From Halobacterium noricense (GTDB lineage Archaea; Halobacteriota; Halobacteria; Halobacteriales; Halobacteriaceae), in NCBI RefSeq assembly GCF_021233435.1, contig NZ_CP089468.1, positions 372,001-436,000 on the forward strand: a DNA stretch of 64,000 nt. Direction: 5' to 3'. Position numbers and translations under genes: made by a program. Below the pieces are notes generated by a model. That model ran no database searches. It was not told where the DNA came from and was given only the letters and a program-made list of their open reading frames with translations. Positions 42,883 to 54,415 of this stretch are shown here, piece by piece. Each line of letters begins with the position of its first letter. Within the stretch, counting starts at the first letter, position 1.

Positions 42883-44616
42883 TCAGGACTCGCCGGCGTA
42901 GACGACGCCGCGTTCGCCGTCCACGGTGACGGTGTCGCCGTCCACGATGTCGTCGAGGTCGGCGTCCCCGACCATCGGCACGTCGAGTTCGCGCGCGACC
43001 ATCGCGGGGTAGCCGGTCATCCCGGACTGTGCGCTCACGATGCCCGCAATCTTCGAGAGGTCGCCGTGGAACTCGTCGTCGAAGTCCGGCCCGAGCACGA
43101 CCACCGCACGCTCGGGAACCTTGGAGAGGTCGCCGTCGTCGAGCACCGCCACGGGCGCGGTGACGCGTCCCTTCACGACGGACTGGCCGACCGTGAGGGT
43201 CTCCGCGGCGACGTGGACTTTCAGCGTGTTCGTCGTGCTCGCGCCTTCGAGGTCGGTCATCATGCCGACGAGCACGACCACGGTGTCGCCGCTGTCGACG
43301 ATGCCGGAGTCGACCGCCGACTGGACCGCGTGCTCGACGACCGTCGTCGCGTCGCCCTCCGCGACCGCGGCGTACTCGGCGTGGACGCCCCAGTTGAGCG
43401 CGAGTTCGCGGCGCACGCGGTGGGAGGGCGTCGCACAGACCACGGGGACGCGCGGCCGGAACTTCGCGGCCTTCCGTGCGGTGTAGCCGGATTCGGAGGC
43501 GACGACGACGGCGCTCGCGTCGATGTCGCGGGCGAGGTAGCGTGCCGACCGCGCGAGCGCGTCGGTCTTCGCCGTGCCGTTCGCGGTCGGGACGCGTTGC
43601 TCCTGCAGTTCGGCGTACTCGCCGCTGGATTCGACTTCGCGCACGATTCGGTCCATCGTCTCCACGACCCGCGTCGGGTTGTCGCCGACCGCGGTTTCGG
43701 CGGACAGCATGACGGCGTCCGTGCCGTCGAGGACGGCGTTCGCGACGTCGCTAGCCTCGGCGCGCGTCGGCCGGCGCGCGTGCACCATCGAGTCCAGCAT
43801 CTCCGTCGCCGTGATGACGGGGACGCCGGCGTCCCGACAGCGGCGGATGATGCGCTTCTGAATCATCGGCACGTCCTCCATCGGGCACTCCACGCCGAGG
43901 TCGCCGCGCGCGACCATCACGCCGTCCGCGGCCTCGACGATGTTGTCGAGGTTGTCGACGGCACCCGCGCGCTCGATTTTGGCGACGACGGGCACGTCAG
44001 CGCCGAACGATTCGAGCACGCGCTCGACTTCGAGGACGTCGTCGGCGTCCCGGACGAAGCTCGCTGCGACGTAGTCGACGCCCTCCTCGGCCGCGAGTTC
44101 GAGGTCGCGGCGGTCCTTCTCCGTGACCACGTCGAGGTCGAGGTCGACGCCCGGGACGTTCACGCCCTTCCGGCTGCCGAGTTCGCCGCCGGACTCCACG
44201 CGAGCGGTGACGACGTTGCCCTCGACGTCCTCCACGACGGTCTCGATGCGGCCGTCGTCCAGCAGTACGCGGTCCCCGGGTTCGGCCGCCGCGACGCTCG
44301 TCGAGAGGCCGATGGTCTCGCCCGTCGTCTCGCCGCCCGGCATGAACTCCACCAGACTCCCAGTTTCGATGTGAACCGGTTCGTCGGTCTCGGCCGTCCG
44401 GACCTCCGGCCCCTTCGTGTCTAACATGACGGCGACCGGCTTCTCGGTCAACTCGTCGACCCGTCGCGCCGTCCCAATCAGGTCGCGGCGGTCGTCGAGG
44501 TTGCCGTGGCTCGCGTTGATGCGCGCGACCGACATCCCCGCGTCCACCAGCGACCGTATCGACGACTCGTCGTCTGTCGCCGGCCCCAGCGTACAGACGA
44601 TTTTCGCGTTTCTCAT
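42883..44616 (-). CDS. pyk: Pyruvate kinase with C-terminal PEP-utilising-like domain
   Basis: 577 residues. Barrel start NAKIVCTLGPATDDESSIRSLVDAGMSVARINASHGNLDD, then MLDTKGPEVRT, VAKIERAGAVDNLDNIVEAADGVMVARGDLGVE and TATEMLDSM, the ADP/PEP and metal sites. The C-terminus about residues 490-577 (AGIVSAQSGMTGYPAMVARELDVPMVGDADLDDIVDGDTV) is the mobile domain of PEP-utilising enzymes, but GMTGYPA stands where the phospho-His motif (TSHAA) would be. It makes pyruvate and ATP from PEP; opposite step to PpsA. Confidence 0.95.
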   Translation of the reverse strand: MRNAKIVCTLGPATDDESSIRSLVDAGMSVARINASHGNLDDRRDLIGTARRVDELTEKPVAVMLDTKGPEVRTAETDEPVHIETGSLVEFMPGGETTGETIGLSTSVAAAEPGDRVLLDDGRIETVVEDVEGNVVTARVESGGELGSRKGVNVPGVDLDLDVVTEKDRRDLELAAEEGVDYVAASFVRDADDVLEVERVLESFGADVPVVAKIERAGAVDNLDNIVEAADGVMVARGDLGVECPMEDVPMIQKRIIRRCRDAGVPVITATEMLDSMVHARRPTRAEASDVANAVLDGTDAVMLSAETAVGDNPTRVVETMDRIVREVESSGEYAELQEQRVPTANGTAKTDALARSARYLARDIDASAVVVASESGYTARKAAKFRPRVPVVCATPSHRVRRELALNWGVHAEYAAVAEGDATTVVEHAVQSAVDSGIVDSGDTVVVLVGMMTDLEGASTTNTLKVHVAAETLTVGQSVVKGRVTAPVAVLDDGDLSKVPERAVVVLGPDFDDEFHGDLSKIAGIVSAQSGMTGYPAMVARELDVPMVGDADLDDIVDGDTVTVDGERGVVYAGES

Positions 44617-44639: not shown

Positions 44640-44675
44640 CGCAAAAACGTACGTGGTTAACTCGCCGCCGAGTTA
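44640..44675 (-). promoter_or_regulatory. pyk promoter with TrmB-like operator AACTCG-N4-CGAGTT
   Basis: A perfect palindrome TAACTCG (44658-44664)/CGAGTTA (44669-44675) with CCGC centre lies 40-60 bp upstream of the pyk ATG and 47-64 bp upstream of the divergent GYD gene. A T-rich stretch near 44640-44650 on the minus strand may be the TATA box. Confidence 0.55.
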
Positions 44676-44721
44676 CAGCCCGGCCACAGCGACTTTTCGG
44701 CGGCCGACACAACCCCCGTGT

Positions 44722-45009
44722 ATGCCGACGTACGCCGCCATCGCCACCGTCGAGACCGGGAAGTTCCAGAACGCCCAAGAACTCGCCGCCATCTGGGGTG
44801 ACGTCCGCGCCGACCTCGAAGCCCAGGACTGCGACCTCCAGGACGCCTACATCCTCCTCGGCGAACGCGACGTCCTCCTCGTCTTCGACGCGCCCGACCG
44901 CGAAGCCGCGCTCCAAGCCTCTATTGCTGCCGAACGCTACGGCATCGACATGCAGACCATGGAAGCGATGGACGTCGAGAAACTCGGCGACGTCGTCGAG
45001 GATCTGTAA
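44722..45009 (+). CDS. GYD domain protein, 95 aa
   Basis: 95 residues, dimeric alpha-beta barrel type: PTYAAIATVETGKFQNAQELAAIWGDVRADLEAQDCDLQDAYILLGERDVLLVFDAPDREAALQASIAAERYGIDMQTMEAMD. The family, named for a conserved Gly-Tyr-Asp, is of unknown function and here the motif is altered. ATG at 44722. It is divergent from pyk and shares the palindrome between them. Followed by the hairpin-rich spacer with a T5 run 7 bp after the stop. Confidence 0.78.
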   Translation: MPTYAAIATVETGKFQNAQELAAIWGDVRADLEAQDCDLQDAYILLGERDVLLVFDAPDREAALQASIAAERYGIDMQTMEAMDVEKLGDVVEDL

Positions 45010-50639: not shown

Positions 50640-52889
50640 TTAGTCTCGGGCGGAGTCGAGGATGAGCCGCTGTTCGACGCGCTTGACCTCGTGTTGGACG
50701 TCGCGGACGGCGTCGATGTTCGCGGAAATCGAGGAGATGCCGGTCTCCACGAGGAAGTTCACCATCTCGGGCTTCGAGCCGGCCTGCCCGCAGATGCTGG
50801 TGGCGACGTCGTGCTCGCGGCACGTCTCGATAGCTCCCTCGATGAGGTCCAGGACGGCGGGGTGGAGTTCGTCGAAGCGGTCGGCGACGTTGCCGTTGTT
50901 CCGGTCGACCGCGAGCGTGTACTGGGTGAGGTCGTTCGTGCCGAACGACGCGAAGTCGATGCCCTCGCCGGCAAGCTCGCCGACGGAGAGCGCGGCCGCG
51001 GGCGTTTCGATCATCGCCCCCCACGTGCGTTTCTCGGTGTCGAGGCCGACCTCGGTCATGAGCTCGCGGGCCTGCCGGACGTCGTCGGCGTCGTTCACGA
51101 GCGGGAACATGATTTCGACGTTGTCGTACCCCATCTCGTACAGTTCCTTGAACGCCTCCAGTTCGTGTTTGAACACCTCGGGACGGTCGAGGCTGCGGCG
51201 GATGCCGCGGTAGCCCAGCATCGGGTTGTGTTCGTGGGGTTCGTCGCTGCCGCCCTCCAGTTGCCGGAATTCGTCGGTCGGCGCGTCGAGGGTGCGGACG
51301 CGGACGGGGCGCGGGTAGAACTCCTCGGCGACCGTGCGCACGCCGGAGACGAGTTCGTCCACGTAGGCGTCCTCGCCGTGGTCGGCGATGTAGCGCTCGG
51401 GCGTCTTGTTCGTGGAGAGAATCATGTGCTCCGTGCGGAGCAAGCCGACGCCGTCGGCCCCGGTCGCGGCGGCCCGCTCGGCGGCCTCCGGAATCGAGAC
51501 GTTGACCTTCACCTCGGTCGCGGTCATCGGCTTCACGGGCGTCGTCGGGCGCGCTTCCTCGATTGGCTTGCGCTCGGACTCCGACTCGGTGCGGCCCTCG
51601 GTGATGGTGCCGCGGTCCCCGTCGAGCGTGACGATTTGGTCGTCGTGGAGCACGTCCGTGGCGTTCGTCGCGCCGACGACCGCGGGACAGCCCAGTTCGC
51701 GGGAGACGATGGCAGCGTGGCTGGTCATGCCGCCCTCGTCGGTGACGATGCCAGCGCCGCGCTTCATCGCCGGCACCATGTCCGGGGTCGTCATCTCGGT
51801 GACGATGATGTCGCCCTCGCCGACCTTGTCGAGCTGGTCGAGCTTGGTGACGACGCGAGCCGGGCCGGACGCGATGCCCGGGCTCGCGCCGAGGCCGTTC
51901 ACGAGTTCCTCGCCGGTGTCGCCGTTTTCGGTCATCTCGGTGTCCTCGTCGATGGTCGTGATCGGGCGGGACTGCAGCATGTAGATGTCGCCGTCAGTCA
52001 TCGCCCACTCGACGTCCTGTGGTTCGCCGTAGTGGTCCTCGACGCGCTCGCCGATGGTGACGAGGTCCAGAATCTCCTCGTCGGAGAGCACGCGCTGCTC
52101 GCGCTTCTCCGCGGGGACCTCGCGTTCGACGGTCTCGCCGGTGTCGGGGTCGCGGACGCACATCACCTTCTTGTCGGCGACCGAGACCGCCTCGACGGTG
52201 TTCGTGTCGCGGTCGACGTGGTAGTTGTCCGGGGAGACCGAGCCGGAGACGACGGCCTCGCCGAGCCCCCACGCGGCCTCGATGATGGCCTTGTGAGCGC
52301 CCGTCGAGGGGTGGCTCGTGAACATCACGCCGGACTTCTCGGCGTCGACCATCTTCTGGACGACCACCGCGATGTCGACCTTGCGGTGGTCGAAGCCCTG
52401 CTCCTCGCGGTAGTAGATGGCGCGCTGCGTGAACAGCGACGCCCAGCAGCGCTTCACGCGGTCGATGAGGTCCTCGCGGGTGATGTTGAGGAACGTCTCC
52501 TGCTGGCCCGCGAAGCTCGCGTCCGGGAGGTCCTCGGCGGTCGCCGACGAGCGCACGGCGACCGACGCGTTCCCGTCGTCCAAATCGTCGTACGACGACA
52601 GGATGTCCTCCCGGATGTGTTCGGGGAGTTCGGTGTTTAGGATGAGGTCTTTCGCGGCCGCTTCGGCGTCGGCGAGCGCGCTGGAGTCCTCGGGGTCGAC
52701 TTCGACCGCGTCGAACAGCTCGTCGTCGATGTTCGCGTCCTCGATGAACGTGCGGTACGTCCCCGCGGTCACGACGAACCCCGGGGGGACGGGGAGCCCG
52801 GCGTCCGTGAGTTCGCCGAGCGACGCGCCCTTGCCGCCGACACTGTCGATGTCGTCGGCCCGTACGTCTTCCAGCCATCGAACAGCCAT
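50640..52889 (-). CDS. ppsA: Phosphoenolpyruvate synthase
   Basis: 749 residues. N-terminal ATP-grasp domain (VGGKGASLGELTDAGLPVPPGFVVT), the phospho-His domain DEGGMTSHAAIVSRELGCPAVVG, and the C-terminal PEP/pyruvate barrel ending with DFASFGTNDLTQYTLAVDRNNG and STSICGQAGSKPEM carrying the catalytic Cys. Converts pyruvate and ATP to PEP, AMP and phosphate: the gluconeogenic counterpart of pyk. Start ATG at 52889; a TTCTTATGAG box lies 25-34 bp upstream. The overlapping longer frame is a shadow of PhzF. Confidence 0.96.
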   Translation of the reverse strand: MAVRWLEDVRADDIDSVGGKGASLGELTDAGLPVPPGFVVTAGTYRTFIEDANIDDELFDAVEVDPEDSSALADAEAAAKDLILNTELPEHIREDILSSYDDLDDGNASVAVRSSATAEDLPDASFAGQQETFLNITREDLIDRVKRCWASLFTQRAIYYREEQGFDHRKVDIAVVVQKMVDAEKSGVMFTSHPSTGAHKAIIEAAWGLGEAVVSGSVSPDNYHVDRDTNTVEAVSVADKKVMCVRDPDTGETVEREVPAEKREQRVLSDEEILDLVTIGERVEDHYGEPQDVEWAMTDGDIYMLQSRPITTIDEDTEMTENGDTGEELVNGLGASPGIASGPARVVTKLDQLDKVGEGDIIVTEMTTPDMVPAMKRGAGIVTDEGGMTSHAAIVSRELGCPAVVGATNATDVLHDDQIVTLDGDRGTITEGRTESESERKPIEEARPTTPVKPMTATEVKVNVSIPEAAERAAATGADGVGLLRTEHMILSTNKTPERYIADHGEDAYVDELVSGVRTVAEEFYPRPVRVRTLDAPTDEFRQLEGGSDEPHEHNPMLGYRGIRRSLDRPEVFKHELEAFKELYEMGYDNVEIMFPLVNDADDVRQARELMTEVGLDTEKRTWGAMIETPAAALSVGELAGEGIDFASFGTNDLTQYTLAVDRNNGNVADRFDELHPAVLDLIEGAIETCREHDVATSICGQAGSKPEMVNFLVETGISSISANIDAVRDVQHEVKRVEQRLILDSARD

Positions 52890-52913
52890 TGACAGGTAGA
52901 TACACCAGAACTG

Positions 52914-52970
52914 CTCATAAGAAGGTTGCGAACCCCTCATACGCAATAATTGCAAACTCGGTTCCGAGTA
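52914..52970 (-). promoter_or_regulatory. ppsA promoter with TrmB-like operator and extra inverted repeats
   Basis: TATA-like TTCTTATGAG (minus strand, 52914-52923). Beyond it, TTGCG/CGCAA inverted repeat (52926-52946), GCAAT-A-ATTGC (52943-52953) and AACTCGG/CCGAGTA (52955-52970), which fits TACT-N7-GAGTA with one change. Confidence 0.6.
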
Positions 52971-53063
52971 CTGATTGTCCGTTCGCAGCCCGGTCGCCAC
53001 CGGTGCGCTCTCGTCGCAGCCGCCAGCGGAGGATTTTAGCCAGCGGCTCGTCACCACTCGGGC

Positions 53064-53501
53064 ATGGACGCGAAACGCGCAGCCGTTCACGCCGGCAAGT
53101 ACTTCCTGTTCACGTCCGCGTTCGCGGTCGTCGGCCTCGCGCTGGTCGGCGGCGGCGTCGCGCTCGGCGGGCTCGAAGCGTGGGACATCCTCTCGGCGGA
53201 CTCCTCGGCGACGGGGCAAGCGCTGACGGCCGCCGCGCCCGGCATCGCGCTCGCCGTCGCGGGCCTGCTCGTCTACCGCTTCGGGAAGGCGTGGTCGCTG
53301 TACAAGACGCTCACCGCCGCCAACGAGGACGCGCTCTCGGACACCTTCGACACCCAGCGCGTGAAAAGCGACATCGTGAGCGTGCTCGACGACCGGCTCG
53401 CGGACATGCAGAACGACCTCCAGTCGGTGAACCGCGAACTCCGCAAACTCAAGGAGGACGACGCGTTCGACTTCGGCGACGCGCCGAACTCGAAGGACTA
53501 G
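53064..53501 (+). CDS. Membrane protein with C-terminal coiled coil, 145 aa
   Basis: 145 residues. Two hydrophobic segments (about 15-36, FLFTSAFAVVGLALVGGGVALGG, and 53-75, ALTAAAPGIALAVAGLLVYRF), then a helical charged region (VLDDRLADMQNDLQSVNRELRKLKEDD) likely a coiled coil. ATG at 53064. Convergent and overlapping by 4 bp with the PhzF gene. It is divergent from ppsA and shares that spacer. Function not recognised. Confidence 0.75.
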   Translation: MDAKRAAVHAGKYFLFTSAFAVVGLALVGGGVALGGLEAWDILSADSSATGQALTAAAPGIALAVAGLLVYRFGKAWSLYKTLTAANEDALSDTFDTQRVKSDIVSVLDDRLADMQNDLQSVNRELRKLKEDDAFDFGDAPNSKD

Positions 53502-54415
53502 GCTTCGAGGATGTCGTCGGTCTCGGCCGGCGGCACCTGTAGCTTCCCGTCGAGCGTCTCGACGGCCGTCCCGCCGACTTTCGGCGCGCCGCCATCCTGC
53601 ACCCGCACTCGGACGCGGCCCGGCCGGTCGACGAAGTGCCCTTGCTCGAAGCCCATCTCGTCGGCGACATCGCCGCCGAACGCCGCGTAGTGTTCGAGGT
53701 ACGCCCCCGTCGCGCCGCTCGCCGTTCCAGTCACGGGGTCCTCGTCGACGCCCGCGCCCGGCACCCACGCACGCCCGTGGAGCGTCGACTCGCCGGCCAG
53801 CGCATCGAACGAGAACGCGTACACGCCGGCCGCGCCCACCTCGTCGGCGAGCGCCTCGACTGCGTCGAAGTTCGGACTGGCGTCGCCAAGGTCCGAGAGG
53901 TACGTCACGGGCGCGACGAGGAACGGCAGCCCCGTCGAAGCCACCGCCAGCGGCAGGTCGTCGCTGGCGCCTCGTAGTGCTTCCTCGTCCAGCCCCGTCG
54001 CAGCCGCGACGCGCTCGTAGGTCACGTCCACTTCCCGAATCTCGCGCGGATTCTGCGTCATCCACACCGTCCCGTCGTCCTCGACTTCGATATCGAGCAC
54101 GCCGACGTTCGTCTCAAGCGTGTGCTCGCCTGCCTCGATGGCGCCGTCCGCGAACAGGTGCGCGTGCGTCGCGATGGTCGCGTGCCCGCAGAGGTCGACC
54201 TCGGTCGTCGGCGTGAAGTACCGAATCCGGCGGTCGGCGTCGCCACTCTCGCGGACGAACGCCGTCTCGCTCGCGCCGAGTTCGGCGGCGATGGCCTGCA
54301 TCTGGCCGTCGGTCAACTCGTCGGCATCCGGCACCACGCCAGCCGCGTTCCCCGCGCACGGCTCGTCGGTGAACGCGTCCACGAGAAGCGCTCGCGCTCC
54401 CATTTTGGTCGGCAT
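53498..54415 (-). CDS. PhzF family protein
   Basis: 305 residues in two matching halves of the diaminopimelate-epimerase-like fold. LGASETAFVRESGDADRRIRYFTPTTEVDLCGHATIATAHLF holds the catalytic Glu (ASET) and the GHATIA loop; VTGTASGATGAYLEHY is the second-half motif. PhzF isomerises dihydroanthranilate in phenazine synthesis, but most homologues have unknown substrates. ATG at 54415, with TATTAGATAATC about 20-30 bp upstream. Confidence 0.88.
   Translation of the reverse strand: MPTKMGARALLVDAFTDEPCAGNAAGVVPDADELTDGQMQAIAAELGASETAFVRESGDADRRIRYFTPTTEVDLCGHATIATHAHLFADGAIEAGEHTLETNVGVLDIEVEDDGTVWMTQNPREIREVDVTYERVAAATGLDEEALRGASDDLPLAVASTGLPFLVAPVTYLSDLGDASPNFDAVEALADEVGAAGVYAFSFDALAGESTLHGRAWVPGAGVDEDPVTGTASGATGAYLEHYAAFGGDVADEMGFEQGHFVDRPGRVRVRVQDGGAPKVGGTAVETLDGKLQVPPAETDDILEA

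Follow-up and report, generated by a model that had tools for sequence, protein, structure and literature searches.

Introduction

Pyruvate kinase and phosphoenolpyruvate (PEP) synthase, the products of pyk and ppsA, catalyse opposite reactions. In Halobacterium salinarum both genes are under the control of the sugar-sensing regulator TrmB (VNG1451C), which activates ppsA (VNG0330G) and represses pykA (VNG0324G) (PMC3794607, PMC10817205). Its published motif is TACT-N7-8-GAGTA, and within 5 min of glucose ppsA goes down 3.6-fold and pykA up 12.7-fold in a TrmB-dependent manner (PMC3794607). TrmB of Haloarcula hispanica (HAH_1548) binds the ppsA promoter, but in a 2024 study control of pyk by TrmB was found to be missing there (PMC10817205). 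Finally, Tgr or TrmBL1 of Thermococcus kodakarensis and Pyrococcus furiosus is a sugar-responsive TrmB-family switch between glycolysis and gluconeogenesis, for which the position of the site decides between activation and repression (cited in PMC10817205).

Here we describe a palindrome at the pyk promoter of Halobacterium noricense, lying in a window of 64,000 nucleotides (NZ_CP089468.1, 372,001 to 436,000). We propose, with a probability of roughly nine in ten, that this palindrome is a TrmB operator, that a copy at ppsA is its partner and that the two sites serve sugar-dependent opposite control, a proposal that draws on the sites themselves, their fixed positions, the presence of a TrmB gene and the joint loss of sites and regulator.

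The locus resembles the Hbt. salinarum TrmB regulon in the type of operator, in having both targets close together and in the two domains of the regulator, and differs from it in the outer letters (AACT...GAGTT here, TACT...GAGTA there) and in being predicted here from sequence. With Har. hispanica it shares the protein family of the regulator and a partly palindromic motif, but TrmB there is published as not controlling pyk, and several TrmB-carrying families of our survey are likewise without a pyk site. The likeness to Tgr/TrmBL1 lies in a sugar-responsive TrmB-family switch between the same two pathways, whereas the motif is a different one, the targets are largely others and the hosts are hyperthermophiles. 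TrmB control of the pyk/ppsA pair has thus already been published for Hbt. salinarum, and the operator is of a known kind; what is new is comparative evidence, from genome sequences, indicating that the operator disappears when its regulator does and that control of pyk extends further than one would expect from the two species studied so far.

The pyk palindrome and its partner at ppsA

The palindrome (TAACTCGCCGCCGAGTTA) is a perfect 7+7 inverted repeat around the 4-base spacer CCGC, at 44658-44675 on the plus strand. It lies between pyk, on the minus strand (ATG 44616), and a divergent gene for a GYD-domain protein (ATG 44722), as follows:

42883 to 44616, minus strand: pyk, pyruvate kinase, 577 aa (PF00224 3.7e-107, PF02887 3.8e-31, PF00391 7.8e-13)
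44642 to 44648, minus strand: TATA-like box GTTTTTG of pyk, at -32 to -26, assigned from conservation in same-genus genomes
44658 to 44675, no strand assigned: palindrome TAACTCG-CCGC-CGAGTTA, predicted TrmB operator of pyk
44692 to 44698, plus strand: possible TATA-like box for GYD, ACTTTTC, covering -30 to -24, assigned from position only
44722 to 45009, plus strand: GYD-domain protein, 95 aa, divergent from pyk (PF08734 4.2e-13)

The 16-base core of the palindrome (44659-44674) occupies -58 to -43 relative to the pyk ATG and -63 to -48 relative to the GYD ATG. Set against the Hbt. salinarum motif it reads AACT-CGCCGCC-GAGTT, in which the core ACT-N7-GAGT and the spacing agree and one letter is off at each outer end. 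The TATA-like box of pyk lies about 21 bases downstream of the palindrome centre; at this box TTTTTGC is invariant in nine compared same-genus genomes that carry TrmB, and TTTTT is retained in those that lack it. Judged from this box, about 5 bases separate the palindrome from the presumed BRE downstream of it, which it abuts with no clear overlap, so that the relation of site to BRE is less clear here than for the repressed targets described for Har. hispanica.

The initial annotation had pointed out that the palindrome shares its core with a site at ppsA, and this is exactly the case at 44658-44675 and 52955-52970, the two genes being 8.3 kb apart here. The corresponding features at ppsA are:

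50640 to 52889, minus strand: ppsA, phosphoenolpyruvate synthase, 749 aa from ATG 52889
52915 to 52920, minus strand: TATA-like box TTATGA of ppsA, at -31 to -26, assigned from conservation
52955 to 52970, no strand assigned: partner site AACTCGGTTCCGAGTA, the predicted ppsA operator of TrmB, spanning -81 to -66 relative to the ppsA ATG

Searched with the longer open frame 50640-54065, ppsA contains PF01326 (2.5e-113), PF02896 (5.4e-82) and PF00391 (2.5e-28). There are 65 bases between its start (52889) and the partner site. The TATA-like box is about 44 bases downstream of the centre of this site, and TTAT or TTAG is kept there in most same-genus genomes, including both that lack TrmB.

Motif counts in the window and the genome

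With zero mismatches allowed, WACTCGN4CGAGTW matches the window exactly twice, at the pyk and ppsA sites only, where dinucleotide shuffles give an expectation of 0.04 +/- 0.20 and two matches were reached in 0 of 100. The true background is higher than these shuffles indicate, since strings of codons like those for E-L-x-x-E-F yield the pattern. The whole 3.32 Mb genome holds 20 exact sites, 17 of which fall within apparent reading frames and one of which (C1:1989903) is in a region where the frame is unclear, and it is only at pyk and ppsA that a recognisable promoter location is found. The abundance of coding matches is what speaks for the palindrome being a product of chance or of codon composition in a G+C-rich genome, and from its letters alone it is indeed weak evidence, since the bare motif is not diagnostic genome-wide. 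A plain genome-wide count, as proposed in the initial annotation, would mislead, since most exact matches stand inside coding sequence.

When this genome was scored with a motif model trained purely on sequence, from 46 promoter sites in many genomes, the pyk site came first and the ppsA site second; both had been part of the training set, and coding matches came close behind. A simple motif count is therefore an unfair test and comparison between genomes the fair one. Accordingly, the case that the pyk palindrome is more than chance rests on the conservation of its exact position across genomes. One further near-perfect site, TAACTCGATGTCGAGCAA (G000:C1:2701747-2701766, G000 being this genome), is seemingly intergenic, with a dipeptidase-like gene some 195 bases downstream.

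Conservation of the sites and of TrmB within the genus

Five full-length PF11495 proteins are encoded in the genome, one of which is the TrmB ortholog:

G000:C1:2000486-2001541: TrmB ortholog, with an N-terminal DNA-binding domain (PF01978, 77.5 bits) and a C-terminal sugar-binding domain (PF11495, 223.8 bits), both above cut-off

Its nearest full-length solved relative is TrmB 3qph. With about 1.58 Mb between its gene and the pyk site, the protein would act in trans. The TrmB gene of two family f6 genomes, by contrast, immediately precedes pyk in the same orientation, with about 140 bases between them (G030:C15:95956-97126 and G057:C3:114721-115892); the pyk promoter of these two is without the palindrome.

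Across 13 genomes of the genus, the TrmB ortholog is present in 11, namely our own and ten others with full-length matches of 74-98% identity, while G001 and G011 gave only weak partial matches, to other proteins. The pyk palindrome is at -58 or -57 from the pyk start in all 11 TrmB carriers and in neither of the two genomes that lack TrmB. In an alignment of nine genomes with TrmB, the half-sites keep the letters ACTCG and CGAGT without exception and the spacer letters vary; G006 and G012 have an exact TACTCG-N4-CGAGTA at this position. The ppsA site behaves in the same way, being present at -81 to -84 in 11 of 11 TrmB carriers and in 0 of 2 without TrmB, where the core promoter of ppsA is conserved. 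G001 and G011 likewise retain the TATA-like box of pyk and the box on the GYD side; what has been erased there is thus only the operator. The suggestion that one regulator, with TrmB as the candidate, is responsible for both pyk and ppsA is in this way supported, as a full TrmB ortholog is encoded and both sites are absent wherever TrmB is absent.

A different sugar regulator might nevertheless bind the palindrome, either one of the TrmB paralogs, there being four further full-length PF11495 proteins in the genome, or an activator of the GfcR type, as GfcR is reported to activate the genes for GAPDH I and pyruvate kinase in Haloferax volcanii (cited in PMC11519228). We consider this very unlikely. 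The sites vanish together with the ortholog described above and the motif fits that published for TrmB; moreover, ppsA is gluconeogenic and would not be an expected target of GfcR.

Two further genes have related sequences upstream. Class I fructose-bisphosphate aldolase (fba; G000:C1, upstream of 854889) has TACTCGGGGTGCAGTA at -93, and this weaker palindrome is found at a fixed place in the genus, -93 or -92, in most readable TrmB carriers and is absent from both same-genus genomes that lack TrmB, suggesting that it is likely another TrmB site. For gapII, a weak palindrome-like stretch (of the CACTCGCGTCGCGGTA type) is found at about -64 to -74 in most readable same-genus TrmB carriers and is absent from the one readable genome without TrmB. 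In this genome gapII (G000:C1, upstream of 212177) has TACTCATATCGAGTA at -184.

Survey of the order

We extended the comparison to 59 genomes of the order, a site being defined as at least 9 of 12 matched letters within the expected interval, with intervals and threshold chosen after the first sites had been seen. By this definition a pyk site is present in 23 of 37 promoters from genomes with TrmB and in 0 of 12 from those without (Fisher p 1e-4, the genomes being related), and a ppsA site in 30 of 36 and 0 of 12, respectively (Fisher p 3e-7, with the same relatedness). Where a pyk promoter matches at 10 or more of 12 letters, the match lies between -55 and -59 in 21 genomes and elsewhere in two others; the ppsA site is mostly at -73 to -94. 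The pyk promoter of Natrinema pallidum has TACTCGAACGCGAGTA, and in Halorussus ruber a similar site stands further upstream.

The families in which the pyk site was found are f1, f8, f9, f11, f14 and f17; it is missing in the TrmB carriers of f3, f4, f5, f6, f7 and f13. In f5 and f7 TrmB is present and the ppsA site is kept without the pyk site, so pyk is not an obligatory target of TrmB. On a pyk tree, used solely to show that changes in TrmB presence are few, they number only about six (with rows G056 and G030 misplaced through translation of the wrong strand), and a test of TrmB against the sites in independent pairs had too few pairs for significance, with none that contradict. The survey bears on chance as well: half-sites that are invariant or nearly so between varying spacers and flanks, a position fixed across six families and loss together with TrmB make a coincidence or compositional artefact next to inconceivable. 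The distribution leads us to favour, by a small margin over even odds, the view that TrmB control of pyruvate kinase is an old haloarchaeal trait rather than a speciality of Halobacterium, the pyk operator having been dropped alone in lineages such as f5 and f7, so that its absence from Haloarcula hispanica would be a loss and not the original state.

The divergent GYD gene

The initial annotation had also considered the GYD gene a possible member of the regulon, in which case the operator would serve this gene as well as, or instead of, pyk. The site does stand between the two start codons, at a near-constant distance from the GYD ATG in the genus, and the two ATGs are 105-107 bases apart in same-genus genomes with the site. 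However, eight genomes (G007 and seven of other genera) have the site with no GYD gene found next to pyk, and two, G001 and G011, which have also lost TrmB, retain the GYD gene without the site; the partner site at the ppsA promoter has no GYD neighbour. Site and GYD gene are thus not conserved together, the site follows TrmB and not GYD, and we reject GYD as the main target and regard its membership of the regulon as doubtful, although a passive effect on it is possible.

On the GYD side, an A/T tract at the place of the possible TATA-like box is present in most relatives, and between this tract and the palindrome a GCCACAG stretch (window 44680-44700) is conserved in most relatives, those without TrmB included, which is possibly a GYD promoter element.

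Discussion

We propose that TrmB acts on pyk and ppsA from the two sites in opposite directions. When sugar is scarce, TrmB would be bound at both. At pyk, on -58 to -43, it would abut the BRE/TATA region (the TATA-like box being at -32 to -26) and hinder TFB/TBP, such that pyruvate kinase is repressed; at ppsA, on -81 to -66, it would sit further upstream of the TATA-like box, by about two helical turns, such that PEP synthase is activated. Sugar would free TrmB and reverse both effects, and a futile PEP-pyruvate cycle would be prevented. The distances of the two sites from their TATA-like boxes fit a block at pyk and upstream activation at ppsA, which are the signs measured in Hbt. salinarum; it is by analogy with that species that we infer TrmB binding, the response to sugar and the sign of each effect in this organism.

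The pyk/ppsA switch of one model haloarchaeon may thus be readable from sequence in others, and appears to be erased from promoters upon loss of the regulator. Moreover, the survey says which haloarchaeal groups should, and which should not, have TrmB control of pyruvate kinase, and it is of direct relevance to the published proposal of a TrmB regulon that was rewired along with metabolism.
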